Below are positions 38,725-62,806 of a DNA stretch of 64,000 nt, piece after piece. The position numbers were made by a program, and so were the translations under genes. Below the pieces are notes generated by a model. It saw nothing but the letters and a program-made list of their open reading frames with translations, was not told the origin of the DNA and made no database searches. This DNA comes from Lachnospiraceae bacterium (GTDB taxonomy: Bacteria; Bacillota; Clostridia; Lachnospirales; Lachnospiraceae). The DNA is taken from contig FZRB01000013.1 of NCBI GenBank assembly GCA_900199595.1, positions 1-64,000 of the forward strand, given 5' to 3'. Positions within the stretch are counted from its first letter, which is position 1, and every line of letters starts with the position of its first letter.

Positions 38725-39837
38725 CTAATCTTCAAAACTAAATCTATAATCGAGACCGAGTGCATCTCTCACTGTTATGATATCCTTCTGCACTCCTTCT
38801 CCCACAGGAACTCCTTTATCCTTCCTGTAGAGCCATACATCGTATTCCTTTTCACCAGCAGTATATATCCTGCTCTCGCCAGGTGCTTTCTTTGAAGCCC
38901 TGAGGGCACGGCATATATCACCAGCAATCTTCTTAAACTCTTCTCTTCCCATAAATGCATCCGGATCCACCACAAAGAAGAAATGTCCGAGATGATACAT
39001 CTTCGGCTTTCCCTCTTTATCAACGCCGGTAAGAGCCTTCATAAATTCTCCGCCTGCCAGCGCTGCAGATAATATTTCTACAACGGCCGCATATCCATAG
39101 CCCTTATATCCTGCAAGTTCTTCTCCTATTCCACCAAGGGGAGCCAGTGCTGCTGTACCGGCAACAAGTTCATCAAGTATCTGCTGACTGTCTGTTAATG
39201 CTTCTCCTTTTTCAGAGATAACAGTTCCTGCAGGAGTTTTCTTTCCCTCTCTGGCATAGTACTCTATACGTCCACGCTGAACAATAGATGTGGCACAGTC
39301 CAGACAGAACGGAAATTCCTCATCTGTCGGAAGGGCAAATGTAAGCGGATTTGTACCCATCATATTTTCAACTCCGAAGGTCGGCGCTATCGATGGTCTC
39401 GCATTTGTTCCCGTGATACCAACCATTCCTTCTTTACTTGCCATAGTAGTCCAATAGCCCGCTATTCCGTAATGGGTAGAATTACGAATGGCACCACCTG
39501 CCATTCCATAGGTCCTGGCCTTCTCTATCAGCTTCTTCATCATATGGTAGCTTGCCACCATTCCCATACCATCGTGGGCATCCATAACAACCGTAGTAGG
39601 AGTCTCCTTAAGTATCTCAATATTCGTGACCGGAAGAAGAGTTCCTTTAACTATTCGATCTATATATATCGGTTTAAACCTGTTACAGCCATGACTTTCA
39701 ATTCCTCTTCTGTCAGATTCCAGAAGCACATCTGCACATATCTTTGCATCCTCCTCAGGCACCCCATAGCCTTTGAAGGCATCTATCATAAAAGAATTCA
39801 TTTGATTCCATGGAACAAACGGTCTGGTTTCCTGCAT
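38725..39837 (-). CDS. Ldh-family NAD(P)H-dependent 2-oxoacid dehydrogenase
   Basis: A 370-residue oxidoreductase of the malate/L-lactate/sulfolactate dehydrogenase (Ldh_2, YlbC-like) family, unrelated to classical Rossmann LDH. Visible family features: ESDRRGIESHGCNRF, RNSTHYGIAGYWTTMA with the catalytic His, GTNARPSIAPTFG, and GYKGYGYAAVVEILSAAL. It reduces a 2-oxo acid or oxidises the 2-hydroxy acid; substrate unknown. A terminator separates it from the phosphonate operon upstream, so a shared pathway is not indicated, though a phosphonopyruvate or phosphonolactate role cannot be excluded. First gene of its operon, with a promoter and palindrome shared with the diguanylate cyclase at 62852. 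Confidence 0.85.
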   Translation of the reverse strand: MQETRPFVPWNQMNSFMIDAFKGYGVPEEDAKICADVLLESDRRGIESHGCNRFKPIYIDRIVKGTLLPVTNIEILKETPTTVVMDAHDGMGMVASYHMMKKLIEKARTYGMAGGAIRNSTHYGIAGYWTTMASKEGMVGITGTNARPSIAPTFGVENMMGTNPLTFALPTDEEFPFCLDCATSIVQRGRIEYYAREGKKTPAGTVISEKGEALTDSQQILDELVAGTAALAPLGGIGEELAGYKGYGYAAVVEILSAALAGGEFMKALTGVDKEGKPKMYHLGHFFFVVDPDAFMGREEFKKIAGDICRALRASKKAPGESRIYTAGEKEYDVWLYRKDKGVPVGEGVQKDIITVRDALGLDYRFSFED

Positions 39838-39912: not shown

Positions 39913-39941
39913 GAAAATCGAGCAGAATCTCTGCCCGATTT
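39913..39941 (-). terminator. Terminator of the phosphonate operon
   Basis: Minus strand: AAATCGGGCAGA pairs with TCTGCTCGATTT (one G-T pair) around a 3-base loop, followed by TTCTTGTTT. Lies 45 bp after the phosphonopyruvate decarboxylase stop. Confidence 0.7.
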
Positions 39942-39985
39942 CATGTATTAAAATGTATAAGAATACATTACTTTATCTGTTATCT

Positions 39986-41101
39986 TTATTTTAGATATTC
40001 CATAAAGTTCTCTTTATTGATTCTTGCAGGAATGGTCGGTCTTCCAAGATCAGCACGTGAACCTATACGGCTCTTTATCTCAAGGAATACTCTTCCCTTT
40101 GCATCCTTTATCTCACTGAGTTTTTTATCAAGTGACTCTGCATCTCTTACAGATGAAACTGAAGTATAGCCACAGCCCTCAGCAATCTTAAGAATATCTA
40201 TTTTTTCAGCTACTGTAGGAAGTCCGCCTACTGATTCATGAGCACCGTTATTGATCACTATATGAACCAGATTATCTACATCAGAAGAACCAATAACTGC
40301 CATACCGCCCATATGCATCAGCATAGCTCCGTCTCCATCGATAACCCAAACTCTTCTGTCCTTCTTCTGAGCAGCAATACCAAGAGCGATGGATGAGCTG
40401 TGTCCCATGGAACCTACAGTAAGGAAATCCTTTTCATGACCTTCTCCTCTTGCCTCTCTCAGCTCAAAGAGCTCACGTCCTGTCTTACCTGTTGTTGCAA
40501 CAACGATATCATCCTTGGATACATCGATGATGTGGCTGATTATCTCTTCTCTTGTCATCAGATAATCATTTGTATATTCAGGATTATTGTCATAAGTAAG
40601 CGCGCCCTTTCTTACAACAAATGAAGCCTGCTTACCCTGAGCAAAAAGCTCATTAAATTCTTTCATCTTTGCTTCAACATCAGCTGCTGTTGTATCCTTA
40701 TCAATTATCATATAAGGAACATCCATATCCTCAAGAAGCTTAAGTGTGATCTCGCCCTGGAATATATGCTGAGGCTCATCATGAACTCCCGGCTCACCTC
40801 TCCAGCCAACTATGTAAAGCATTGGAATAGCATAAACCTTCTCGTTGCAAAGAGATGCAACAGGATTAACTATATTGCCCTGTCCGGAATTCTGCATATA
40901 CACTACAGGAACCTTGCCTGTAGCAAAGTGATAGCCCGCAGCGGCTGCGACAGCATTTCCCTCATTAGCAGCAATTACATGATGTTCAGGTGTAACACCG
41001 TAGGTCTGAACCAGATAATTACCAAGAGCAGCCAGGAGGCTGTCAGGAACACCTGCATAAAAATCTGAATTGATTACACTTACTAATTCTTCTACTTTCA
41101 T
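39986..41101 (-). CDS. ppd: Phosphonopyruvate decarboxylase
   Basis: A 371-residue thiamine-diphosphate enzyme that drives phosphonate synthesis by converting phosphonopyruvate to phosphonoacetaldehyde. The ThDP/Mg site is seen as VIDGDGAMLMHMGGMAVIG with the closing Asn in VINNGAHESVGGLPT, and the N-terminal half has the FYAGVPDSLL and AANEGNAVAAAAGYH segments typical of Ppd. Length is normal. It is the last gene of the operon; PEP mutase and a reductase precede it, which fixes the assignment. Confidence 0.93.
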   Translation of the reverse strand: MKVEELVSVINSDFYAGVPDSLLAALGNYLVQTYGVTPEHHVIAANEGNAVAAAAGYHFATGKVPVVYMQNSGQGNIVNPVASLCNEKVYAIPMLYIVGWRGEPGVHDEPQHIFQGEITLKLLEDMDVPYMIIDKDTTAADVEAKMKEFNELFAQGKQASFVVRKGALTYDNNPEYTNDYLMTREEIISHIIDVSKDDIVVATTGKTGRELFELREARGEGHEKDFLTVGSMGHSSSIALGIAAQKKDRRVWVIDGDGAMLMHMGGMAVIGSSDVDNLVHIVINNGAHESVGGLPTVAEKIDILKIAEGCGYTSVSSVRDAESLDKKLSEIKDAKGRVFLEIKSRIGSRADLGRPTIPARINKENFMEYLK

Positions 41102-41171
41102 TCTTTTCCTCTTCTTTATATTCGATTATCAAAAGATAACAGTTTGAACAAAAGTTCAACTGTCACCTTTT

Positions 41172-42314
41172 TCAGTTGAGTATTTTTCTATATAGCATTT
41201 CGATTGTTTCTTCGTCCAGTGCTATAGGATGATTCTTAAGTCTTACCGGATTGACTGAGGTTTTGAGTTCTGCAAAGTCTTCCTCTTTAGCAGCAGGAAT
41301 CTCTAGTTCCAGTCTCTCAAATATCTCCTCAACTTTAGCTGCGGCATCCTTTGGTGCAGCACAACCCATTGCATCTGCTATTTCATTAAATACAGATTTC
41401 AGATATTCTTCCCCTCTCGGATCAACACATTTATCTGTATTCTCAAGCATCCATGGGAATAACACCCTGTCACAAAGTATAGCAGCATGGCCATGAGCCG
41501 CCCTGAAAAGGCTGGTTATCTTATAGCACATAGCATGTCCTGCAGTAGTCTGAGTAATGTTGATAGCCTTTCCTGCAAGATTTGCAGCCATCAGCATGTT
41601 GCTGTTACCTTCTTCGGTATTGTTAAGATAACCATCTATATTTTCCATTACCATGCGGATAGCCTGTCTGCTGTAAGACTTGCTCTCGTCAGTTGAGTTA
41701 ACTGACCAGAAGGACTCAATAGCATGACAGAAGGCATCCATCATAGTACTCTTTTTCTGATACTCAGGAAGCGTCTTAAGAACACTGCTGTCCATAAGAA
41801 CCGTCTCTGGAATGGCACTGTAATCAGCAACTGACTGCTTCTTTCCATCATAATAGACTACTGCATATCTTGTGGCTTCCGAACCTGTTCCTGCTGTAGT
41901 AGGCATAGCAAGGAACGGAACATCATTCGGAACAACATCTATCTTAAGAAATGCGCCTTCAGCACCATCACTGTCCATATTGGAGTACAGCTTGATACAT
42001 TTTGCAACATCCATAGCTGAACCGCCACCAACTGCCATGATTGCATCACTTTCTGACTCTCTGAAGAGCTTAACTCCCTTTACAACAGAATCATACAATG
42101 GATTTGGCTGGAAATCATCGAATCTTATGATCTTAAGCTCTGCTCCTGAAGGTGTGTTTCCCGTTTCTTCAATCTGCTCGATGTATTTTCTGATTTCAGT
42201 CAGAAACTGAAAGGATGTATCACATACCAGGAAAAGCTTACTGATATTGTTAGCTTTTATCCAGTCTTCTAAAGATTCAAATTCATTTATTGATGTAATA
42301 ATCTTCTGTTCCAT
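41172..42314 (-). CDS. Iron-type alcohol dehydrogenase, predicted phosphonoacetaldehyde reductase
   Basis: A 380-residue group III (Fe-ADH) enzyme: NAD site AVGGGSAMDVAKCI, substrate region AMPTTAGTGSEATRYAV, metal ligands in MMDAFCHAIESFW and TAGHAMCY...HGHAA. In phosphonate clusters this family (PhpC, FomC, DhpG) reduces phosphonoacetaldehyde to 2-hydroxyethylphosphonate. Its place between PEP mutase and Ppd, and the absence of an aminoethylphosphonate transaminase, support that role here. Substrate is inferred from context only. Confidence 0.85.
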   Translation of the reverse strand: MEQKIITSINEFESLEDWIKANNISKLFLVCDTSFQFLTEIRKYIEQIEETGNTPSGAELKIIRFDDFQPNPLYDSVVKGVKLFRESESDAIMAVGGGSAMDVAKCIKLYSNMDSDGAEGAFLKIDVVPNDVPFLAMPTTAGTGSEATRYAVVYYDGKKQSVADYSAIPETVLMDSSVLKTLPEYQKKSTMMDAFCHAIESFWSVNSTDESKSYSRQAIRMVMENIDGYLNNTEEGNSNMLMAANLAGKAINITQTTAGHAMCYKITSLFRAAHGHAAILCDRVLFPWMLENTDKCVDPRGEEYLKSVFNEIADAMGCAAPKDAAAKVEEIFERLELEIPAAKEEDFAELKTSVNPVRLKNHPIALDEETIEMLYRKILN

Positions 42315-42345
42315 TTAACTTAACCTTTATATATGTTGTATCGAC

Positions 42346-44355
42346 TTACTCTTCAGGAATAAGTGTGATGATGTCTTTGATTGACATACACTTATCATCA
42401 CATTCCTTAGCTCTGTGATTTTCAAGGATAGTACGGGCTGCATCCTGCATAGCAGGGAAACCTGTTCTTGTGAGCTGGTTAGCGTAGATGATCACGTTAG
42501 CTCCACGCTCCTTGAACTCGCTTTCATATACTGTATTGAAGCTTGTAGGAACAAGCACGATTGGTGTAGTACTGTCCTTTTCACGGAACTTCTCGATAAA
42601 TTCAAATATCTCATCCGGCTCCTTGCGGCGGCTGTGGATCATTATCGCATCAGCACCTGCGCCCGCAAATGCAAAGGCTCTTTCAAGTGCATCATCCATT
42701 CCCTGCTCAAGTATAAGACTTTCTATTCTTGCGCAGATCATGAAATCCTTTGTCTTCTGAGCCTTCTTACCGGCCTTTATCTTCTCACAGAAATTTTCGA
42801 TGGAATCCTGTGTCTGCTGTACCTCAGTACCGAAGAGAGAATTCTTCTTAAGACCGCATTTATCCTCGATAATAACCATGGATACACCCATACGCTCAAG
42901 TGAACGTACAGTATAAACAAAGTGCTCTGTAAGTCCGCCTGTATCTCCATCGAAGATAATAGGCTTCGTGGTTACTTCCATGATATCATCTATGGTTCTG
43001 AATCTTGAAGTCATATCTACAAGTTCGATATCCGGTTTACCCTTTGCTGTTGAATCGCAAAGTGAAGAAACCCACATAGCATCGAACTGATAGGTCTTTC
43101 CATCCTGAAGAACTGTTGTCTTCTCAGCAATAAGACCTGTAATACCTGAATGTGCCTCTATGGCATTTATGCAGCCTTTCATAGCTATAAGCTTACGAAG
43201 TCTTCCACGTCTCATATCCGGCATGGAAAGCTCTGCTCTTGATGCTCTGTCAAGCTCTTTGAACTTCTCATCCTTTGAATAAGGATACTCAACAAGCTTT
43301 CCGCCATAGCTCTCAAGGATGTTTATAACCTCTTCCCTGATAGGCTTCTGGAAACCTGTGCACCAGTCATCACCATGAACGACAAAATCAGGTTTTAGTT
43401 CATTAAGTATATTCCTGTAGCTGAGTTCCTTCTGCTCAACCACCCTGGTAACGCCTTTTATATTTGCGATAAGAGCTTTTCTCTCATCAAAGCTTATTAG
43501 CGGATATCTCTTATAGCTTGCAACTGCCTCATCTGAAAGCACACCAACTGTAAGTTTACCTAAAGCAGCCGCCTTCTTGATGATAGCTATATGTCCGCTA
43601 TGGATAACATCTGTTGAAAAGCACATATATACTCTTCTGTGTGTTATCTCATGAAGTCTCTTTGATACTATCTCCAGATCTTCAGGTGTATCTATCTCGG
43701 AGCAGAGTCTGTCCTCAACATCAAATGCCTTGATATGACATATATCTGATATCTCGTTAAATGCGTTCTCTGCATATACATTTCTATTGTCGTTGTCGCA
43801 GAACTCTTCAATCTTATCCAGCCATAAGTTCCAGTCCTCTTTATTCAGCTTATAAAGAGCCTGTGCTTCCATGGCATCATCAAAGCAGTCGATGGCAACC
43901 TTCTTTACAAAACCATCCTTAACTACCGCCTTAAAGTCCTTCTCCGGAAGTGGGATGGTAGAACTAACCTTCATGCAGCTCTCAGGACAGCTGATAAGGT
44001 CCTCAAGCACGCTCTGCTCAAATACAAGATCACCATGCATGAAGACTATATCCTGATCACGGAGATAATCCTTTGCACAGTAAATGGAATAGATATAATT
44101 AGTCTTGTCATATAACGGATTATTTACATAGGTTATATTCAGAGACAGATCCAGGGAATCACAATACTTCATAAGTACTGTATCATAATAACCGGTTGTC
44201 ATTACAACCTCTGTTATTCCCATCGCCTCTATAAGTCTCAGCTGGCGGCTGAGGATGGTATCTGTGGAAGATACCTCAGTCATACATTTGGGATGCTCAC
44301 AGGTGAGAACCCCCATACGGCTGCCAAGACCGGAATTAAGGATCAATGCTTTCAT
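42346..44355 (-). CDS. pepM: Trifunctional fusion: LicC-like nucleotidyltransferase, TagD-like cytidylyltransferase, PEP mutase
   Basis: 669 residues in three domains. (1) About 1-235: nucleotidyltransferase with LNSGLGSRMG...HPKCM and FMHGDLVF, like choline-phosphate cytidylyltransferases. (2) About 238-375: a second cytidylyltransferase of the TagD/glycerol-3-phosphate type with HSGH in STDVIHSGHIAI and VVHGDDW. (3) About 385-669: PEP mutase with IIFDGDTGG, the mutase-specific EDKCGLKKNS and MICARIESLI. PEP mutase makes phosphonopyruvate, the committed step; the transferase domains should activate the phosphonate end-product as a CMP ester. GAGGAAATT precedes the ATG. Two CTP-type domains in one chain with PepM is unusual. 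Confidence 0.92.
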   Translation of the reverse strand: MKALILNSGLGSRMGVLTCEHPKCMTEVSSTDTILSRQLRLIEAMGITEVVMTTGYYDTVLMKYCDSLDLSLNITYVNNPLYDKTNYIYSIYCAKDYLRDQDIVFMHGDLVFEQSVLEDLISCPESCMKVSSTIPLPEKDFKAVVKDGFVKKVAIDCFDDAMEAQALYKLNKEDWNLWLDKIEEFCDNDNRNVYAENAFNEISDICHIKAFDVEDRLCSEIDTPEDLEIVSKRLHEITHRRVYMCFSTDVIHSGHIAIIKKAAALGKLTVGVLSDEAVASYKRYPLISFDERKALIANIKGVTRVVEQKELSYRNILNELKPDFVVHGDDWCTGFQKPIREEVINILESYGGKLVEYPYSKDEKFKELDRASRAELSMPDMRRGRLRKLIAMKGCINAIEAHSGITGLIAEKTTVLQDGKTYQFDAMWVSSLCDSTAKGKPDIELVDMTSRFRTIDDIMEVTTKPIIFDGDTGGLTEHFVYTVRSLERMGVSMVIIEDKCGLKKNSLFGTEVQQTQDSIENFCEKIKAGKKAQKTKDFMICARIESLILEQGMDDALERAFAFAGAGADAIMIHSRRKEPDEIFEFIEKFREKDSTTPIVLVPTSFNTVYESEFKERGANVIIYANQLTRTGFPAMQDAARTILENHRAKECDDKCMSIKDIITLIPEE

Positions 44356-44440
44356 ATGCTAATTTCCTCATTCTTTCTGTACAGGTCCCCCCTGTCAGAG
44401 GAATCCTGTCATTTTTAGTTAGTCAGTTGATATGAACGAT

Positions 44441-44638
44441 CTACTTCTCAGCAGCATCTATCTCCTGAATCTCGTCTTCAACTTCCTTCTTGCTGTTCTC
44501 ATCTATGTTGAGTGTCTTACTAACCTTCTTCTTTGCTTTTCTCCAGAAAACTGATATTACAGCACCACCTGCGATAACGATGGCTGCAACTGCCTGGATA
44601 ATATAAGTAGTTACTGACGGATCGATGTAAAGTATCAT
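44441..44638 (-). CDS. Small single-helix membrane protein of the phosphonate operon
   Basis: A 65-residue protein: MILYIDPSVTTYIIQ, one membrane helix (about 10-32), then a basic stretch (RKAKKKVSK) and an acidic tail. Similar short proteins beginning MILYIDP occur in Lachnospiraceae near surface-polymer genes (recollection, unchecked). It has a good AAGGAG site and lies between the YidC-transferase and PEP mutase genes. It may be an accessory or anchor subunit of the transferase. Confidence 0.7.
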   Translation of the reverse strand: MILYIDPSVTTYIIQAVAAIVIAGGAVISVFWRKAKKKVSKTLNIDENSKKEVEDEIQEIDAAEK

Positions 44639-44674
44639 TTTGTTTTCTCCTTTGCTTAGATAAAATGATTTTCC

Positions 44675-46585
44675 TTATTTCTCTTCTTTTCTCTTCTGTG
44701 CCTTTTCCTTCAAGCTGTTGATGATATACTTGGCACTCTCTTCACCGCTGTGTCCGTAGTTAGCTATGAGTTCATTTCGTATATCAATGTTATTCTTTAT
44801 ATATTCATCCTGTCTGTCTATCAGGTCGCGTACTGTTTCAGCGATACCCTCAAGCTTCTCAGGATTCATTCTGATACCAACCTTATCTCTAAGGCTTATT
44901 TCAAGTGGCTCTATGCCAATCTCCTTGTAGTTCGGATTGTTGACCTTCATAGGTGTATCTATGAAAATACATGGCTTACCGGTTACAAATGAGAACTCAT
45001 AGGTAGTTCCTGACCAGTCTGATATAGCAACATCCGAATCAAAGATTGAATCATTCTTGGTAAAATCAAGCTCAAATGTAAGATCATCACCATCGTAATT
45101 CTCATAACGCTTAACAATTGCATCCATTCTTGCGCCGTATCTCTTAACATACTCGGGATGAGGTCTTACATGTACATTGAAGCCCTTTCCGAGAAGTCCC
45201 TTAAGCATGTCATCGATGCAGGAATCAAGGATGTTTCCTTCCTGCCATGACGGAGCAATAAGAATCTTATTACCCTTCTGAAGGTTATCCTTTATCTTAT
45301 CATAAGCAGCCTGAAGCTTCTCCAGCTGACCATAACCTGTAACAACAAGCTTCTTTTCAGGCAGCTTGTGAATCTCCTCCTGCTTTCTGATCTCAGGAAT
45401 CTGGAAATCACCTACGCAGAGGATGGTATCATAATGATCAAGAGCTCCTGTATGAAGTACCATGTGTGTACTGAGAGGATAATGGAACATGTAAACATAC
45501 TCCACATCTTTTCTTACATAGCTTCTCTTGATATGATAATTCTCCAGATCAGACATAGTCATAACAACCATATCTGCATCCATCTTCATCATAAGAGTGA
45601 TAAGTCTCTTTTCACCTATATAATATCCTCTGATATGAGGATTCTCTTTTTCCATTTCAAATATCTGATCGTTAGGATCACTAGTCACATAATGTATCGT
45701 AACATTTGTATGCTCAAGCAGATACTTTATTGTATCTTCAAAATATTTATAGAAACCATTCTTCTCTGAATAGAATACCAGGTGCTTATTTGCTACGCTG
45801 AAGAACTTCTTGTAATCAGCCTTCTCCTTAGCCTTCTGTTCCTTGGTCACTTCGCCGCTGCCCATATGTTCAAGTTCAGCCAGCTGCTTACGGCTGTCTT
45901 CAAGAGCTTCATGGTCGATATACTTATTTGGATTAATTATGAGATTTAATAATACCTGCTGAAGTATCGTAAAAAGATTGCTGCATATCCAGTAGAAACC
46001 TACTGCCATAGGAACGAAAAATCCCAGAACCAGTGATATACCTACGGATATGGCAAGTGTACTTATCTGTCCTGCACCTGACTGTTCAGCCTGAAGCGGA
46101 TTCAGTTTATTCTGAGCAAGTCCGAGAATAAGTGCCGAAAGTCCTGCCAGAACAGGCATGAGAAGATAAGCTCCTCCGACTACATTGGGATAATCCTGAA
46201 ATCTTATGCCTGCGATCTCCATAGCACTTTCGCTGAGGCTTGCAAGCTGAGGATTTCTAACCACATGTATTATTCCGAGAAGAAGCGCTATCTGTATGAT
46301 TGTCGGAATGATTGTAAGAAAAGGATTATAATGTTCCTTCTTATAAAGCTCAGTTGTTTCGTCTGCTATCTTGTCTTTGTCGCCGAAATACTTAACCTTG
46401 ATCATATTCAGTCTCGGCTGCATGATAACCATTTTGATACTATTCTTCTGTGTCCATATGCTGACCGGAAGAAGAATAATCTTCGAAAGAATCGTAAAGA
46501 GTACTACTGCCACCAGATAATTCTGAAATCCGATGCTATAACAGAATTTAAATACCACACCAAATGCTGATGCTATATAAGACAT
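44675..46585 (-). CDS. YidC/Oxa1-like membrane insertase fused to CDP-glycerol-type phosphotransferase
   Basis: 636 residues. Residues about 5-225 are a YidC/Oxa1-type domain: five helices, cytoplasmic loop with MQPRLNMIKVKYFGDKDKIADETTELYKKE and the later VPMAVGFYWICSNLFTILQQ; the groove Arg of YidC is Lys in ILSKIILLPVS. Residues about 265-620 are a TagB/TagF CDP-glycerol glycerophosphotransferase: ILIAPSWQEGNIL, VHVRPHPEYVK, SDWSGTTYEF and CIFIDTP. The second domain transfers alditol-phosphate-like groups from CDP- or CMP-esters at the membrane. As first gene of the phosphonate operon it probably transfers the CMP-activated phosphonate, with the YidC part acting as membrane anchor or acceptor platform. 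Confidence 0.9.
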   Translation of the reverse strand: MSYIASAFGVVFKFCYSIGFQNYLVAVVLFTILSKIILLPVSIWTQKNSIKMVIMQPRLNMIKVKYFGDKDKIADETTELYKKEHYNPFLTIIPTIIQIALLLGIIHVVRNPQLASLSESAMEIAGIRFQDYPNVVGGAYLLMPVLAGLSALILGLAQNKLNPLQAEQSGAGQISTLAISVGISLVLGFFVPMAVGFYWICSNLFTILQQVLLNLIINPNKYIDHEALEDSRKQLAELEHMGSGEVTKEQKAKEKADYKKFFSVANKHLVFYSEKNGFYKYFEDTIKYLLEHTNVTIHYVTSDPNDQIFEMEKENPHIRGYYIGEKRLITLMMKMDADMVVMTMSDLENYHIKRSYVRKDVEYVYMFHYPLSTHMVLHTGALDHYDTILCVGDFQIPEIRKQEEIHKLPEKKLVVTGYGQLEKLQAAYDKIKDNLQKGNKILIAPSWQEGNILDSCIDDMLKGLLGKGFNVHVRPHPEYVKRYGARMDAIVKRYENYDGDDLTFELDFTKNDSIFDSDVAISDWSGTTYEFSFVTGKPCIFIDTPMKVNNPNYKEIGIEPLEISLRDKVGIRMNPEKLEGIAETVRDLIDRQDEYIKNNIDIRNELIANYGHSGEESAKYIINSLKEKAQKRKEEK

Positions 46586-46649: not shown

Positions 46650-46678
46650 AATTTACACCATAAAACCATATTCGTCAA
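46650..46678 (-). promoter_or_regulatory. Sigma-A promoter of the phosphonate operon
   Basis: Minus-strand TTGACG and TAAATT separated by exactly 17 bases, 65 bases before the YidC-transferase start. This makes the operon independent of the polyamine-type genes upstream. Confidence 0.75.
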
Positions 46679-46711: not shown

Positions 46712-48241
46712 CTATTCCCAATTTCTAACTGCTTCATTATAATACTGGATCATAACCGGTTTAGTCAGTTGATTAACTTCCACCTCTTCTCCCTCTTTAG
46801 GCTTCTCATCCTTGCCAAATGTAAAGAGTGCCGGGATGTTATCCTTTGAGAGATATTTTGTATCTATAGATTCATCAATGACTATCTTATTAGGATTCGA
46901 TATATAATCATTATCCTGTTTTACTGCCATATTAAAGCCCCAGTCACCGAATGCCGGAACCTGAAGATGATAGGGTGCCACCGTAAAGCCTTCGCTTTCA
47001 AGAGTCTTTGTAACACTCCAGAAGGACTTAGTAGCATAATAAGGACTTGTGGACTGGATATTCAGAACCCCTTTGTCATCCAGTACATTTTTGCACATAC
47101 GATAGAAAACATTTGAATAAAGCTTGGCAAGTGCTTCATTATTAGGATCCGGCAGATCCACTATTACAACTCCATACTTTTTATTACATTTTTCAAGATA
47201 TTCATAGGCATCCATGTTGATGATGGTCAGCCTGTCAGACTTAAGAGCATTCTGATTAAGCTCTGAAATGACCTTATCCTCGCTGCAGATTCTGGTCATT
47301 TCACTATCAAGATCCACCATGGTGATTTTGGTATCAGGATATTTCAGGAGTTCGCGTGCAGCCATCCCGTCTCCACCTCCCAGAATAAGGACCTCACTGC
47401 GGCTTCCTGTTATACTCATTGGTATATGAACCAGCGCCTCATGATATCTGTATTCATCCACGGAGGAGAACTGTACATTTCCATCTATATAAAGCCTTAC
47501 ATCATCCTTATGCCTGGTTACAACTATCTTCTGATATTGAGTCTGCTCAGACATAATGACCATATCTCTGTAAAGTCCGTTTTCTATAAATCTTCCTATA
47601 TTCTCTGAAACAACCATTCCGAATATCATAATGAGCATAAGCACTACGGTAAGCACCTTGTATACTTTCTCTCCACGAATCCTCTTATGGTATTTGAAAA
47701 CTATAAGGCAGGCACATATAAGATTAAATGTACCGGCCATAAATGACGTTGCAAAGAACCCCAGCTTAGGCATAAGGAGCAATGGAAATGCCACCGAACC
47801 GATAAGTCCTCCGATATAGTCAAAGCTGAAAAGACTGGACAGAGTAATTCTCAGGTTCTTATTATCATTCTCGATAATTCTTGTAAGGATGGGAATCTCC
47901 GCTCCGACTATGGTTCCTATCAGAATGATCTCCACATACATAACTATCTCATAGGACTCCAGATAGAGATTTGCCAAAAAAAGAAGAAGTGAGCTGAGTC
48001 CACCTATCACGCCCACTCCAATTTCGATATTTGCGAACCAGTTAAAAAGGTCTTTCTTTATGAATTTAGACAAAAATGATCCGATTCCCATGGCGAACAT
48101 ATATAGTCCGATGGTAATCGAATAGTGAAGGGTACTGTCCCCCACCAGATATGAGCTTACCGCACTGATAATCAGTTCATAGACCATGGAACATCCCGAA
48201 ATGATCAGTGTGGTAAGCATTAATAATCTGTAATTTTTCAT
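46712..48241 (-). CDS. Membrane spermidine-synthase-like aminopropyltransferase
   Basis: 509 residues: six or seven membrane helices (about 5-215), then a spermidine-synthase fold (about 230-465) with the nucleotide motif VLILGGGDGMAARELL, the acidic MVDLDSEM and the catalytic-loop VIVDLPDP, and a C-terminal extension. The last motif keeps the Asp residues that hold decarboxylated AdoMet and amine. Membrane-bound relatives are widespread but their amine acceptor is unknown. The ATG follows the DUF350 stop directly (TAAATG). Last gene of the SpeD-DUF4178-DUF350 operon. Confidence 0.85.
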   Translation of the reverse strand: MKNYRLLMLTTLIISGCSMVYELIISAVSSYLVGDSTLHYSITIGLYMFAMGIGSFLSKFIKKDLFNWFANIEIGVGVIGGLSSLLLFLANLYLESYEIVMYVEIILIGTIVGAEIPILTRIIENDNKNLRITLSSLFSFDYIGGLIGSVAFPLLLMPKLGFFATSFMAGTFNLICACLIVFKYHKRIRGEKVYKVLTVVLMLIMIFGMVVSENIGRFIENGLYRDMVIMSEQTQYQKIVVTRHKDDVRLYIDGNVQFSSVDEYRYHEALVHIPMSITGSRSEVLILGGGDGMAARELLKYPDTKITMVDLDSEMTRICSEDKVISELNQNALKSDRLTIINMDAYEYLEKCNKKYGVVIVDLPDPNNEALAKLYSNVFYRMCKNVLDDKGVLNIQSTSPYYATKSFWSVTKTLESEGFTVAPYHLQVPAFGDWGFNMAVKQDNDYISNPNKIVIDESIDTKYLSKDNIPALFTFGKDEKPKEGEEVEVNQLTKPVMIQYYNEAVRNWE

Positions 48242-48679
48242 TTATGCTATAACTCCGCTTATAACCAAACCTAATCCTACAAACATTCCGAATACCATAA
48301 TACCTGCGGCCGCATTTCCATTTCCAACCTCAGTATTAAGGTCATACTGCTTATTGATAAACTTAAGTATCAGATAGCCTATCATAAGAAATGCAGCTCC
48401 AAGCACATAATAGAATACTGTATTTAAAATACCTGATAACAGACTGGTTTCTATCTCACTGATTACCTCGGTCGAAGCAATGGCTACCTTTATTATGAGA
48501 CCGATTGCTATATACGCACCTGCTGATATCCATCCAATAGCCTTATTTCCTTTTTTGATCTCTTCCGGAAATGAACAGGGGATAACCAGATCAACCAGGA
48601 AGCTTCCCAGAAGCATAAGCACTATTCCAAGTACTGAATATATAGAAACACTGACTAATTCATTAAGTATAGAACTCAT
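48242..48679 (-). CDS. DUF350 membrane protein
   Basis: A 145-residue protein with four helices in two similar pairs (about 10-30, 48-68, 84-104, 120-142), typical of DUF350; GNKAIGWISAGAYIAIGLII and NGNAAAGIMVFGMFVGLGLVI are the internal repeats. Function unknown; the fold suggests a small channel- or scaffold-like membrane protein. Strong ribosome site AAGGAGGG. It lies in the operon with SpeD, DUF4178 and the aminopropyltransferase. Confidence 0.85.
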   Translation of the reverse strand: MSSILNELVSVSIYSVLGIVLMLLGSFLVDLVIPCSFPEEIKKGNKAIGWISAGAYIAIGLIIKVAIASTEVISEIETSLLSGILNTVFYYVLGAAFLMIGYLILKFINKQYDLNTEVGNGNAAAGIMVFGMFVGLGLVISGVIA

Positions 48680-48691
48680 ATAAAACCCTCC

Positions 48692-49813
48692 TTATTTACC
48701 ACTACTCAGACCACCACCATCAGAACTTCTCGATGCGATACTGCTCTGTCTGACAGAATTTGAATAATTATTAAGACCGTTGTTCGAATCGTATGTTACT
48801 GTACCATCTGAATATCCATCATATGATGAATGATATCTGCTGTAAGAACCCGAATCATCATTATAACCGGTGGAATAATAGAATCTTCTGTAGTATCTGC
48901 GAGTCCTGTTTCTGGAACGATAGGGTTCCTTATCCGTTGAATAAGCATATTTTCTTGAAGATACCTGAACAAGAATCTTATCATCTTCACTTCGGTAAAT
49001 AATACAGTATTCCTTCGAAGTGAGTATGGCCACCGTATGATCATCCTTTTCATCATTCTGCTGGATGGCACTTGAATTTCCATTGATTCCATCTATGATA
49101 TCCTGTGCGACCTTATTGAGAGCCTCCTCCTCCGAATAATTTGAAAGCAACGAGGAACCACTCAGATATTCATATACATTTGCCTTCTGCTTTTCCTCAC
49201 CTGTAATAGAGGTAACATATTCATATAAAAATGTCTGTTTTTTCAGATAAGGCTCTATCTTTTTATTCTGAGGTATCAACCCCTTCAGTGAAGAACCCAT
49301 AAATGCAAGCACAAATATTATAATAATAATCGCCTTGCCGAATATAGTCGTTTTCCCAGTCAGACCTGAACTGAAGCTGCCGCCCCGGATTTCTCCTTCT
49401 CTTCCGAATTCCCAGGGATCCAGATAATAGCCTGACGAGTACTCATCTTCATCATCCCAGTGTTCTATGGAAACGATTTTTTCCTCTGTATGATCCTCAT
49501 ATTCTTCGAAGATTACCTCGTCCCCGATTTCCACATCCACATCACCAGCTACGCCAGCCACTTTAGCAGTTCCTCTGTCAACCAGATGATATCCGGAGGT
49601 GCTGGCAAAAGGATTCTTCTTTGAAAGAGAATATTCATTGTAAGCATAATCAACTGACAGCCATCTCTCTTCATTATTGAAGTTTTCAGCCCGGAGTCTG
49701 TATTCATCCCAGGTTTTTCCATCTGCTTTATTCAGATATGTTATCCTGCCGAGTACTCTGTAATTATCGCCATCGGCCGTGATAATTTCGCCGATATTAT
49801 ACATATTTCCCAT
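48692..49813 (-). CDS. DUF4178 protein with membrane helix and Ser/Tyr/Arg-rich tail
   Basis: A 373-residue protein. An N-terminal beta-rich DUF4178 domain (about 1-150: YNIGEIITADGDNYRVLGRITYLNKADG, EEYRLRAEN, WLSVDYAYNEYSLSK) precedes a membrane helix (about 168-182) and an outer region with a low-complexity Arg/Tyr/Ser tail ending SSDGGGLSSGK, like DUF4247-type tails. Function unknown. Start codon follows the SpeD stop without a gap, with GGAGG inside the speD end. Confidence 0.8.
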   Translation of the reverse strand: MGNMYNIGEIITADGDNYRVLGRITYLNKADGKTWDEYRLRAENFNNEERWLSVDYAYNEYSLSKKNPFASTSGYHLVDRGTAKVAGVAGDVDVEIGDEVIFEEYEDHTEEKIVSIEHWDDEDEYSSGYYLDPWEFGREGEIRGGSFSSGLTGKTTIFGKAIIIIIFVLAFMGSSLKGLIPQNKKIEPYLKKQTFLYEYVTSITGEEKQKANVYEYLSGSSLLSNYSEEEALNKVAQDIIDGINGNSSAIQQNDEKDDHTVAILTSKEYCIIYRSEDDKILVQVSSRKYAYSTDKEPYRSRNRTRRYYRRFYYSTGYNDDSGSYSRYHSSYDGYSDGTVTYDSNNGLNNYSNSVRQSSIASRSSDGGGLSSGK

Positions 49814-50173
49814 TTATTCCTCCGACTTATCCGATGTCCTTCCTATTACTCTTTCACACCTTCCGAGCTTAACCTCAGATGCCTTGAAATAATCCTTCAG
49901 CATCCGGGTTATCCTATCGGTAACCGACTCTCCGCAGGAAAAAACATCCACTGCTGCATAGCCATATTCAGGCCAAGTATGTATAGAAAAATGTGACGTA
50001 GTAATAACAGCAAAATAAGTGATTCCTATAGGTTCAAAGGTATGGACACATTCCTCCACTATCTCTGCACCAATATCAGAAACCACTTGTCCTGCTATCC
50101 TGCGTATAGCCTCTTCATTATTAAGGATTTCTTCGTCGCATCCATATAGATCTGCAAACAGCTGACTTGCCAT
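49814..50173 (-). CDS. speD: S-adenosylmethionine decarboxylase proenzyme (SpeD type)
   Basis: A 119-residue proenzyme that self-cleaves to form a pyruvoyl cofactor and makes decarboxylated AdoMet, the aminopropyl donor. The processing Ser60 is in TSHFSIHTWPEYGYAAVDVF, with His65 and Cys80 (FSCGES) also conserved. The residue before the cleavage Ser, normally Glu (ESH), is Thr here. The start at 50173 is chosen because GGAG lies 7 bases upstream and because a consensus promoter lies at 50203-50231, which rules out a longer form. First gene of the operon with DUF4178, DUF350 and the membrane aminopropyltransferase. Confidence 0.9.
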   Translation of the reverse strand: MASQLFADLYGCDEEILNNEEAIRRIAGQVVSDIGAEIVEECVHTFEPIGITYFAVITTSHFSIHTWPEYGYAAVDVFSCGESVTDRITRMLKDYFKASEVKLGRCERVIGRTSDKSEE

Positions 50174-50202
50174 AATAAATCTCCAAATCATAAACTGCTT
50201 CA

Positions 50203-50231
50203 AGTATACAGTAATAAAAAGTCAGTGTCAA
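50203..50231 (-). promoter_or_regulatory. Consensus sigma-A promoter of the speD operon
   Basis: Minus-strand TTGACA and TATACT separated by 17 bases; transcript would start about 23 bases before the ATG at 50173. Confidence 0.85.
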
Positions 50232-60958: not shown

Positions 60959-61043
60959 CTCAAATCGAACCTTAAGGCACATCACATAAGCAAGTAACCT
61001 ATAATCAGATATTCATTTTAAAACAATTCGTTTGAGGTGCAAT

Positions 61044-62282
61044 ATGCATATATCTCTAAAACTCATAGAACTCTTTGTATTCTGGTATCCGGCCATAATG
61101 TCTGTCATATGGATGGCTGGCGGAATTATATTCTTCGTCTGTAACGAACGAAAACAGGCACTTCCCTTATACAAAACTCCTATGGTTTCCATTCTTGTTC
61201 CTTGTTTTAATGAAAGCGATACCATCGAAGGTACCGTAGAAAGACTTTCTGAAATAGTATATCCCAATTATGAAATAATAGTTATAAATGATGGTTCTTC
61301 TGACGATACTTCAGAGAAAGTCAGATCGATCATTGACAAATATCCCAAGCTCAGATTTATCGATCTTAAAGAAAACTGTGGTAAGGCAAATGCACTGTAT
61401 CTCGGTCTTATGGCAGCAAAAGGCGAAATCCTTGTGGGAGTTGATTCTGATTCTTATATAATGCCTGATGCACTTAACTATATGGTGCCACATTTTACTA
61501 ACCGATATAACGGAGAAAGAGTCGGAGCCGTAACCGGTAATCCACGTGTAAGAAACAGAAGTTCTCTTCTTGCCAAGATTCAGCTTTGTGAATATGCAAG
61601 TATAATCAGTCTGATAAAAAGAACCCAGCGCGTATGGGGTAAGATAATGACAGTTTCCGGTGTTGTAGTTGCTTTCAGAAAGAGAGCCCTTATGGATGCA
61701 CAGCTCTGGGACAGAGATATGGTTACAGAGGATATCGGTGTAACCTGGAAGCTGGAAAAGAATTTCTGGGATGTTCGTTATGAACCTCGTGCACTGTGTA
61801 TGATGCTGGTTCCCGAATCCTTAAAGGGACTTGCAAAGCAGCGTAACAGATGGACAAATGGCGGTATAGAGATTCTGAAAAGACATTTCAATATCTTCAA
61901 ACACTGGAAGGAAAGACGATTGTTTCCGGTTTATGTAGAACAGCTCTGCTCCATTCTCTGGTCTGTATGCTGGCTTATAATGCTTATCATTATCTTATAT
62001 CATCTGGTAGTTGATCATACATATATTCAGCTTCCATATATATGGAAATGTTTATTCCTGTCTTCAGTGTGCCTGATACAGTTTGCCGTTGCAATACTGC
62101 TTGATAAGCGATATGATCCTCAGCTATTTAAGCATAGTATAGTTGCCGTATGGTATCCATTTGTATACTGGTACGTAAATGCTTTACTTGTTATAAAATC
62201 CATTCCGACATTTTTCAAATGTAATCAGAAGCTTGCCAGATGGCATAGTCCGGATAGAGGAATTGAAACAGCGGGTCAATGA
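61044..62282 (+). CDS. PgaC/BcsA-like membrane glycosyltransferase family 2
   Basis: A 412-residue processive polysaccharide synthase. An N-terminal helix precedes a GT2 domain with the UDP-sugar motifs VINDGSSDD and VGVDSDS, acceptor-site MVTEDIGV (TED) and the processivity motif QRNRW, followed by three or four C-terminal helices. This matches poly-N-acetylglucosamine synthase PgaC/IcaA. The ATG at 61044 is chosen because GAGGTG lies 4-5 bases upstream. The downstream gene overlaps by 4 bases and is PgaD-like. No PilZ domain is attached. Confidence 0.88.
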   Translation: MHISLKLIELFVFWYPAIMSVIWMAGGIIFFVCNERKQALPLYKTPMVSILVPCFNESDTIEGTVERLSEIVYPNYEIIVINDGSSDDTSEKVRSIIDKYPKLRFIDLKENCGKANALYLGLMAAKGEILVGVDSDSYIMPDALNYMVPHFTNRYNGERVGAVTGNPRVRNRSSLLAKIQLCEYASIISLIKRTQRVWGKIMTVSGVVVAFRKRALMDAQLWDRDMVTEDIGVTWKLEKNFWDVRYEPRALCMMLVPESLKGLAKQRNRWTNGGIEILKRHFNIFKHWKERRLFPVYVEQLCSILWSVCWLIMLIIILYHLVVDHTYIQLPYIWKCLFLSSVCLIQFAVAILLDKRYDPQLFKHSIVAVWYPFVYWYVNALLVIKSIPTFFKCNQKLARWHSPDRGIETAGQ

Positions 62283-62806
62283 GAAAAAACAATATGAAAC
62301 AACAGAATAATGATTCTCTTCCTCAGGAAGTAGAATATGATATAAAAGAACATCTGATTCTTGGAAAGCAGAAGAAATGGAAGCAGGTTATAGAATGGAT
62401 TCTGACAATACTCGGCTGGTTTATAATGCTTTCATATATCGGTTATATCATATATGGAAATATAGCCATACGCCACAACCTTTTCCTTCCGGAATTGGGT
62501 GTCTTCAACAGATATATGATTGAAGAGGTCGATAAATACTATCTGTTTCTGCTAGTGATTCTTCTTCTGATTTTTCTGATATTTATCATATGGAAAAATT
62601 ATAATAAAAAAAGATTCGGTTCTCTTCACAGAAGACAGTTCAAACCGGATGTTACAGTAAAAGAGCTGGCAGAAAGGTTTGAAACGACTGAAGAGAAAAT
62701 ATTGGAAATGCAAAATGAAAGAGTAATAACTCTTGAACATAATATTATTCCGGAAGAACTCGGAATAGGTAAAAGCTCCTCAAAGCGAAAAGATGCCGAC
62801 AGATAA
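62279..62806 (+). CDS. PgaD-like accessory protein of the polysaccharide synthase
   Basis: A 175-residue protein with two membrane helices (about 41-62 and 90-112) and a basic cytoplasmic tail. The order, size and the FGSLHRRQF segment after the second helix resemble PgaD, the small partner that is needed for PgaC activity and, in E. coli, for cyclic-di-GMP control. Family membership is inferred largely from position and topology. ATGA overlap with the synthase gene couples translation. Confidence 0.7.
   Translation: MRKNNMKQQNNDSLPQEVEYDIKEHLILGKQKKWKQVIEWILTILGWFIMLSYIGYIIYGNIAIRHNLFLPELGVFNRYMIEEVDKYYLFLLVILLLIFLIFIIWKNYNKKRFGSLHRRQFKPDVTVKELAERFETTEEKILEMQNERVITLEHNIIPEELGIGKSSSKRKDADR

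Follow-up and report, generated by a model that had tools for sequence, protein, structure and literature searches.

The window is a 64,000-nucleotide stretch of the genome of a gut or rumen Lachnospiraceae bacterium (GCA_900199595.1, contig FZRB01000013.1), and its minus strand harbors a phosphonate operon of five genes at 39986-46585. All five open reading frames are present where a sequence-only reading, prepared before this analysis, had placed them, and the gene identities and domain memberships given below are observed directly. The features, with domains indicated beneath the gene that contains them, are as follows:

44675-46585, minus strand: fusion of a YidC/Oxa1-like membrane domain and a TagF/TarL-like transferase, 636 aa
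45938-46585, minus strand: YidC domain, residues 1-216, groove residue K35 (PF02096)
44678-45805, minus strand: TagF/TarL-like transferase half, residues 261-636, invariant H368 and H476 (from relatives' profiles and structure)
44441-44638, minus strand: small membrane protein, 65 aa, motif LYIDPS, single hydrophobic stretch
42346-44355, minus strand: fusion of two cytidylyltransferases and a phosphoenolpyruvate (PEP) mutase, 669 aa
43642-44355, minus strand: MobA/LicC-like cytidylyltransferase domain of the type found in 2-hydroxyethylphosphonate (HEP) loci (PF12804)
43231-43641, minus strand: Fom1-like cytidylyltransferase domain, HSGH motif (PF01467)
42349-43200, minus strand: PEP mutase domain, EDKCGLKKNS (TIGR02320)
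41172-42314, minus strand: iron-type alcohol dehydrogenase (Fe-ADH), predicted phosphonoacetaldehyde reductase, 380 aa (PF00465)
39986-41101, minus strand: phosphonopyruvate decarboxylase, 371 aa (TIGR03297)
46650-46678, minus strand: predicted promoter, TTGACG-N17-TAAATT
39914-39942, minus strand: terminator-like hairpin, 13 pairs

The genes are separated, in order, by 36, 85, 31, and 70 bases, their order is the same in the relatives L125 and L126, and we know of no activity for any of the encoded proteins. The predicted promoter is a weak consensus match (9/12), and promoter-like sites in the region are not above chance (45 observed, 41.7 ± 6.9 expected); it is nonetheless credible, because its box is kept, identically in L125 and as TTGACA-N17-TACAGT in L126, amid upstream DNA that has diverged. 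The terminator that had been proposed together with this promoter is present as a hairpin, of a kind that is no commoner in the region than expected by chance (8 observed, 7.9 ± 2.8 expected). The base composition of the operon resembles that of the rest of the window, and a horizontal island was rejected on this measure.

The first three enzymatic functions are assigned by family membership. The PEP mutase domain scores 402 bits against TIGR02320 (cut-off 319.55) and contains the motif EDKXXXXXNS, and the decarboxylase scores 458 bits against TIGR03297 (cut-off 312.5). The Fe-ADH, whose gene adjoins those of the mutase and the decarboxylase, is a candidate phosphonoacetaldehyde reductase of the PhpC/FomC/DhpG type; it is a PF00465 member and not PsrA, scoring 132 bits against TIGR03405 with its curated cut-off of 423.7. 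Its metal ligands, which we take from the family to be D193, H197, H260, and H274, are kept in 31/31 (D193), 30/31 (H260 and H274, one gap) and 25/31 rows (H197). PEP mutase occurs in 46 of 397 genomes of the source organism's bacterial family, and 48 PEP-mutase loci of the family sample were typed by translated searches of the DNA, because longest-ORF calling lost genes in dense loci; the choline-kinase genes of L184 and L203, for instance, had been missed in this way. This survey, which the sequence-only reading had suggested, parts the loci by cytidylyltransferase type: 18 have the Fe-ADH without a transaminase, and all 18 carry the HEP-type PF12804 domain (NTP3), while the 16 with a transaminase and no Fe-ADH are of PntC type (14) or neither type (2), none being of NTP3 type. 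Two further loci, L120 and L124, carry the HEP-type NTP3 with no reductase in reach.

That the end product is instead 2-aminoethylphosphonate (AEP), made by a transaminase from another part of the genome while the Fe-ADH has some other role, is thus highly improbable. AEP is named as a typical surface phosphonate in PMC6697681, and one locus, L090, combines a transaminase with a weak Fe-ADH match; L090, like the 16 transaminase-only loci, is without the HEP-type cytidylyltransferase, and a search of the whole source genome found no close AEP transaminase, the best match being 23% identical. AEP was rejected on the association counts and on this search, and production of HEP rather than AEP is well supported by association.

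Activation of the headgroup with CMP, also proposed before, is well supported by the families of the two cytidylyltransferase domains. The PF12804 domain is fused to a PEP mutase, as expected of PntC, and on the tree it does not group with the enzymes of AEP-type loci. A single change parts the HEP (30) from the AEP (14) rows if only these are counted, while HEP against all other rows needs five changes; because HEP and AEP rows separate, the domain is not classed as PntC, although it is predicted to work like PntC. NTP3 is fused directly to the Fe-ADH in L123 and L153, the only two cases seen, and a supposed third fusion in L124 was rejected, as this protein consists of NTP3 and a membrane domain. 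The second domain has the features of the Fom1 type, namely an HxGH motif, fusion to PEP mutase and closeness to the solved Fom1 structure 5x3d (E 2e-40; 54% identity over 119 residues). The variable residue of HxGH is S, G, or N in 29/29 HEP loci and E in 13/16 AEP loci; on the tree of this domain, the neighbors of Fom1 are one untyped and one AEP row with weak support, and no starred set includes Fom1. Why two cytidylyltransferase domains are needed is not explained by the pathway proposed below.

CMP-HEP is also an intermediate of fosfomycin synthesis, via Fom1 (PMC6697681), and the operon could accordingly be read as making a small free phosphonate, whether fosfomycin-like or of another kind, in place of a surface decoration. 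The operon contains no further tailoring gene, and of the sampled HEP modules some adjoin genes for LicD, flippase-like proteins and glycosyltransferases and others the YidC-transferase, hence we regard this as very unlikely. In the surroundings of 13 HEP modules that lack the YidC fusion, the most frequent Pfam family is LicD (7/98 flanking proteins, counted without a control set), and polysaccharide, flippase-like and glycosyltransferase genes adjoin some of them.

The transferase half has no meaningful Pfam match of its own, falling below the gathering cut-off of PF04464, and a direct sequence search of the PDB gave no useful match. Its kinship emerges through relatives and structure: in the A2 set (13 rows, no YidC domain) 12 match PF04464 at E 0.1 or better, the thirteenth being the window without a match, and structure alignment gives Z 20.5 with TagF (3l7j) and 20.4 with TarL (8va1), only a little ahead of the remaining GT-B enzymes, which reach at most 19.9. 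H368 and H476 are invariant in 60/60 rows and, judging from alignment offsets and entry titles, probably match the catalytic H300 of TarL and H444/H548 of TagF. The CDP-glycerol-type transferase of the sequence-only reading is therefore well supported as a remote TagF/TarL relative.

What this half transfers is less direct to read, as it might make a polymer backbone instead of adding HEP. It would then be a polymerase or primase using CDP-polyols for glycerol- or ribitol-phosphate, with HEP added elsewhere, for example by LicD. The nearest solved structures, TagF, TarL, and Cps3D, are all polyol-phosphate polymerases, no recognised headgroup gene lies within 8 kb in 36 of 80 related transferase loci, and a motif scan finds LicD in 4 of the 13 HEP modules that have no YidC fusion. 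Of the 14 rows in one starred clade, most of them from Eggerthellaceae and their kin, 12 have no recognised headgroup gene and two have choline-kinase-like genes. The source genome, however, already has six other Glyphos_transf genes above cut-off, and relatives of the transferase adjoin HEP, AEP, choline-kinase and NTP3-aminotransferase genes. Moreover, with labels repeated from the translated DNA searches, the transferase tree follows headgroup type in 10 changes against 18.6 when shuffled (0/500 as low; 38 typed rows), where the initial labels had given 9 against 16.6; such clustering is inflated by kinship among rows. A backbone enzyme is on balance unlikely. In the NTP3-fused aminotransferase only PF00155, PF00483, and PF12804 were detected; its ‘CobD-like’ name is a presumed label, from which the phosphoethanolamine reading is drawn. 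The transferase is not obligatory for HEP loci, since it is missing within 6 kb in 15 of the 18 of the family sample. Angelakisella massiliensis (L154) is a cultured species that has both the HEP module and the YidC-transferase.

The fusion of this transferase to a YidC domain, which the sequence-only reading had treated as a detail, is the most unusual part of the operon. The domain scores 112 bits against PF02096 (cut-off 35) and has the fold of Bacillus halodurans YidC (3wo7; Z 18.8, rmsd 2.9, 202 aligned residues). Since the YidC fold is retained, the domain might be an ordinary insertase or assembly chaperone for the small segment or another partner, with no direct movement of lipids or headgroups. 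The positive groove residue is kept as well, being K in 67 of 70 YidC-transferase fusions, R in two and a gap in one, and E. coli YidC with a lysine in the groove is active (R366K/Y517A; PMC8920935). On the other hand, the source genome has a separate YidC with R in the groove, and across relatives the domain has two different envelope enzymes as fusion partners. In all eight YidC-sulfatase fusions examined the groove position is N, whereas the insertase literature describes the positive charge as strictly conserved, though dispensable in the presence of some neighboring residues. We consider a purely ordinary insertase rather unlikely. E. coli YidC is described as scrambling lipids in vitro (PMC10491306).

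The genes around related transferases point to further partners. Of 80 related transferase loci, 65 have a relative of the small LYIDP protein within 8 kb, and in relatives this segment is fused either to the transferase or to an LtaS-like enzyme. For an LtaS-like gene within 8 kb the count is 46 of the 80, against none of 35 PEP-mutase loci that lack the transferase. There is none beside the operon of the window, while in the close relative L126 one follows the decarboxylase gene, and the two nearest relatives of this enzyme in the source genome (56-57% identical) are encoded on another contig; for this reason the earlier description of the operon as self-contained is too strong. A true sulfatase was rejected as an identity for the LtaS-like enzyme, as its sequence profile ranks LtaS first; its fold cannot separate sulfatases, phosphonate monoester hydrolases and YejM (best 50 rows, which hold no LtaS entry). 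Its T248 is invariant in 32/32 rows and is the likely nucleophile.

Taken together, we judge it probable that HEP is made, activated with CTP and transferred to an envelope acceptor by the YidC-TagF fusion. PEP mutase would form phosphonopyruvate, the decarboxylase would convert it to phosphonoacetaldehyde, and the Fe-ADH would reduce this to HEP. The LicC-like domain, and perhaps also the Fom1-like domain, would then form CMP-HEP from HEP and CTP, a donor assigned from the enzyme families. At the cytosolic face, the TagF-like half may transfer HEP from CMP-HEP to either a lipid carrier or a glycan, with the YidC domain and the small LYIDP segment as the presumed membrane part of the complex, and an LtaS-like enzyme encoded elsewhere in the source genome would probably complete the transfer outside; the acceptor class, the topology and the direction of flow are those that we infer for this scheme.

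In gut Bacillota and Eggerthellaceae, four different two-part fusions link the YidC domain, the transferase, the small segment and the LtaS-like enzyme. Together with the varied headgroup neighbors, they suggest a single decorating machine that spans the membrane and works with interchangeable CMP-headgroups (HEP, AEP, phosphocholine, and presumably phosphoethanolamine). A specific form of it, in which the TagF-like half loads a lipid carrier, YidC has turned into a lipid flippase, the LtaS-like enzyme transfers outside and the window holds the HEP version, is conceivable but doubtful. A bolder variant would have HEP, with its free hydroxyl kept, as the building block of a polymer, the phosphonate counterpart of teichoic acid. 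No description of such a machine was found in titles and abstract openings of literature on YidC with glycerophosphotransferase, sulfatase or LtaS, or on surface HEP and phosphonates, gut or other (in both cases among the matches listed), nor in those on YidC lipid scrambling.

Surface phosphonates withstand enzymes that strip phosphate esters, and beyond LicD-like guesses we know of no transferases that attach them. The operon offers a candidate for such a transferase, together with a matching reductase and cytidylyltransferase pair for HEP. Should headgroup lipids be moved by the YidC domain, the in vitro scrambling by YidC (PMC10491306) would gain a biological use, and gut bacteria would have an envelope assembly machine of a new type.

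PEP mutases in triple fusions and polymers decorated with HEP are not new in themselves. Fusions of PEP mutase with both PF12804 and PF01467 were counted in 42 of 1485 cases by Rice et al. (2019; PMC6697681), in the text of which the word YidC is absent. The Pnt pathways described there share the PEP mutase-cytidylyltransferase fusion and the use of CMP-phosphonates for surface tailoring; the characterised PntC enzymes prefer AEP, whereas here the Fe-ADH and a separate cytidylyltransferase type imply HEP. Fom1 of Streptomyces wedmorensis likewise has a PF01467 domain fused to PEP mutase, the closest solved domain, but a single cytidylyltransferase domain is mentioned in the available sources, and its CMP-HEP goes to an antibiotic, fosfomycin, and not to a polymer. 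The TagF/TarL polymerases share with the operon's transferase the fold and, by our alignment, probably the positions of two invariant histidines; they differ in sequence (13-18% identity in structure alignments), and the operon-type transferase is fused to or partnered with YidC and has CMP-headgroup genes of several kinds as neighbors. Phosphonoglycans of Glycomyces reportedly bear HEP. Marine polysaccharides bear HEP esters (PMC5649143, PMC9381506), and both cases resemble the present proposal in placing HEP on a polysaccharide, but in other producers. The Lic phosphocholine pathway (LicA/LicC/LicD) follows the same logic of a CMP-activated headgroup, and LicD adjoins some HEP modules, whereas the window has the YidC-TagF fusion where LicD would stand.

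Five closely spaced minus-strand genes were found where the sequence-only reading had placed them, encoding a YidC-transferase fusion, a small LYIDP membrane protein, a PEP mutase fused to two cytidylyltransferase domains, an Fe-type alcohol dehydrogenase (Fe-ADH) and phosphonopyruvate decarboxylase. The operon and its surroundings comprise:

39986-46585, minus strand: the five-gene phosphonate operon
46712-50203, minus strand: a four-gene polyamine/membrane operon (AdoMet decarboxylase, DUF4178, DUF350, membrane-fused spermidine synthase)
38725-39837, minus strand: an Ldh_2-family dehydrogenase, directly downstream of the putative operon terminator
61032-62806, plus strand: a family 2 glycosyltransferase and a PgaD-like protein

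The source genome comprises 47 contigs totalling 3.49 Mb, and the base composition of the operon DNA is ordinary. The operon looks accessory, since G160, the sole other genome of the genus in the samples, has neither PEP mutase nor transferase at the thresholds used. Among the matches listed, the nearest named relative is L125, a Eubacterium sp. MAG from sheep omasum that matches the transferase half at 99%. The window's promoter box is kept in L125 and in L126, a second relative of the same gene order, although the DNA further upstream diverges, so the operon appears to be a unit of its own, apart from the upstream polyamine operon. Operons resembling the latter are tied to PspA systems in a passage of PMC11237479. 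The plus-strand pair is possibly a poly-N-acetylglucosamine synthase, which would place a possible polymer acceptor close by. A gene similar to the Ldh_2-type gene adjoins PEP mutase and cytidylyltransferase at L116, where no decarboxylase was found, and hence a phosphonolactate route, with reduction of phosphonopyruvate by the Ldh_2-family enzyme, is conceivable.

The product is much the likeliest 2-hydroxyethylphosphonate (HEP), by association rather than assay, owing to association counts, domain types and the lack of a close aminoethylphosphonate (AEP) transaminase in the window's genome. The earlier proposal of HEP is probably right. PEP mutase and decarboxylase both score above curated profile cut-offs, and the mutase also shows EDKXXXXXNS, the motif used for PEP mutases in a section of Rice et al., 2019 (PMC6697681); Fe-ADH enzymes are treated as phosphonoacetaldehyde reductase (PhpC) in part of PMC9381506. 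PEP mutase occurs in 46 of 397 genomes of the same family (E 1e-60). Across 48 loci (the window and 47 others, holding all 49 matches; neighbours within 6 kb), Fe-ADH without transaminase was found at 18, transaminase without Fe-ADH at 16, both at 1 and neither at 13. The window-type PF12804 cytidylyltransferase domain is present in 18/18 Fe-ADH-only loci versus 0/16 transaminase-only loci, 14 of which have the PntC type and 2 neither type. Of the 13 untyped loci, L120 and L124 have the window type, one more has the PntC type and the other 10 have neither. In a tree of 69 PF12804 domains, one change splits HEP (30) from AEP (14) rows when these alone are counted; versus all other rows, HEP takes 5 changes and AEP 3. 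A direct fusion of this domain to Fe-ADH occurs at L123 and L153.

L108 and L109 are HEP modules of a single genome, separated by about 12 kb; the decarboxylase of L108 reads as one ORF of 110 aa and another of 249 aa. L124 has a 617 aa ORF joining the HEP-type cytidylyltransferase to a membrane domain that is rhomboid-like by eye. L119 and L121 carry PEP mutase, decarboxylase and two PF01467-like domains, one fused and one free, with neither Fe-ADH nor transaminase found.

Two cytidylyltransferase domains are kept at most loci, and the second (PF01467) has Fom1 as its closest solved structure. Its HxGH motif and tree (2 changes) differ between HEP and AEP loci; median identity to Fom1 is 50% and 38%, respectively, with overlapping ranges, and Fom1 itself is not placed among the HEP rows of the tree. 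The domain is not always needed, because L123 is without it.

At 13 HEP modules that lack a YidC fusion, LicD is the commonest Pfam family of the flanks (7 of 98 proteins; 112 families in all, counted without a control set), beside nucleotide-sugar epimerases, polysaccharide flippases, glycosyltransferases, transposases and many single families, and a motif scan placed LicD-like proteins at 4 of the 13. These surroundings fit transfer from CMP-HEP to a glycan, and in the window operon the YidC fusion takes LicD's place. The transferase half alone gave no useful Pfam or PDB match; PF04464 was matched by 12 of the 13 rows in an alignment with relatives without the YidC domain, the thirteenth row being the window's own, and profile searches found TarL and the TagF-like Cps3D. 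A confident structure model (mean pLDDT 91.4, built with 60 sequences) best matched TagF (Z 20.5 over 335 aligned residues) and TarL (Z 20.4 over 332). The scores of non-hydrolysing epimerases and other GT-B folds are close behind (Z 19.9 and below), so the function does not follow from the fold alone. H368 and H476 are invariant in 60/60 rows and, by alignment offset, would be the counterparts of the TarL/TagF catalytic histidines.

Relatives of the transferase half occur in 20 of 250 family genomes and as at least 553 confirmed stretches in named genomes. The best 80 of these, with record titles including Lachnospiraceae, Oscillospiraceae, Christensenellaceae and Eggerthellaceae, have within 8 kb a YidC domain (78), a relative of the LYIDP protein (65) and an LtaS-like enzyme of the alkaline-phosphatase superfamily (46); the last was found at 0/35 PEP-mutase loci without transferase, a comparison whose query came from transferase neighbourhoods and may favour them. 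Headgroup genes at these best 80, again within 8 kb, are HEP (15), AEP (3), choline kinase (8) and NTP3-aminotransferase (5), the rest having cytidylyltransferase alone (9), Fe-ADH alone (3), another PEP mutase (1) or none (36). On the transferase tree, headgroup types cluster beyond chance (10 changes, 18.6 when shuffled; 0/500 shuffles as low; 38 typed rows, not independent of each other), also after two near copies were dropped (36 typed rows).

Four fusions were found among 2344 ORFs, copies included: YidC-transferase (86), YidC-LtaS-like (12), small segment-transferase (12) and small segment-LtaS-like (10), the small segment being called by BLAST or by YIDP then G/S near the N-terminus. 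As all linking fusions occur, the four parts would form one machine. The window's own genome holds further pieces: a 951 aa YidC-LtaS-like fusion on contig 16 (L226, 7887-10742), whose groove residue is N; a tandem pair of LtaS-like genes on contig 11, 56-57% identical to the gene following the operon in L126; and, on contig 7, a second transferase, a LYIDP-transferase, adjoining a fusion of cytidylyltransferase (NTP3) and class I/II aminotransferase fold (L049, 7597-10634), a second headgroup locus, perhaps for phosphoethanolamine.

The YidC domain still folds like B. halodurans YidC (Z 18.8). The groove position, strictly positively charged in insertases according to a section of PMC8920935, is K in 67, R in 2 and a gap in 1 of 70 YidC-transferase fusions, R in the genome's own YidC and N in 8/8 YidC-LtaS-like fusions examined. 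This N does not prove lost insertion, since, in the same paper, suitable neighbours can make the charge dispensable. Joining to a cytosolic transferase or an outside-facing enzyme is expected of a part linking both membrane faces, and such fusions in different lineages make a flippase role attractive but unproven; lipid scrambling in vitro by E. coli YidC is described in part of PMC10491306. The main rival is that the domain is an assembly chaperone.

HEP polymers are already known, as are CMP-phosphonates and triple-fused mutases. No description of a YidC-TagF-type transferase within a general headgroup-decorating machine of gut bacteria was found in the literature listings searched, and the putative role of this transferase as part of such a machine would be the new aspect.
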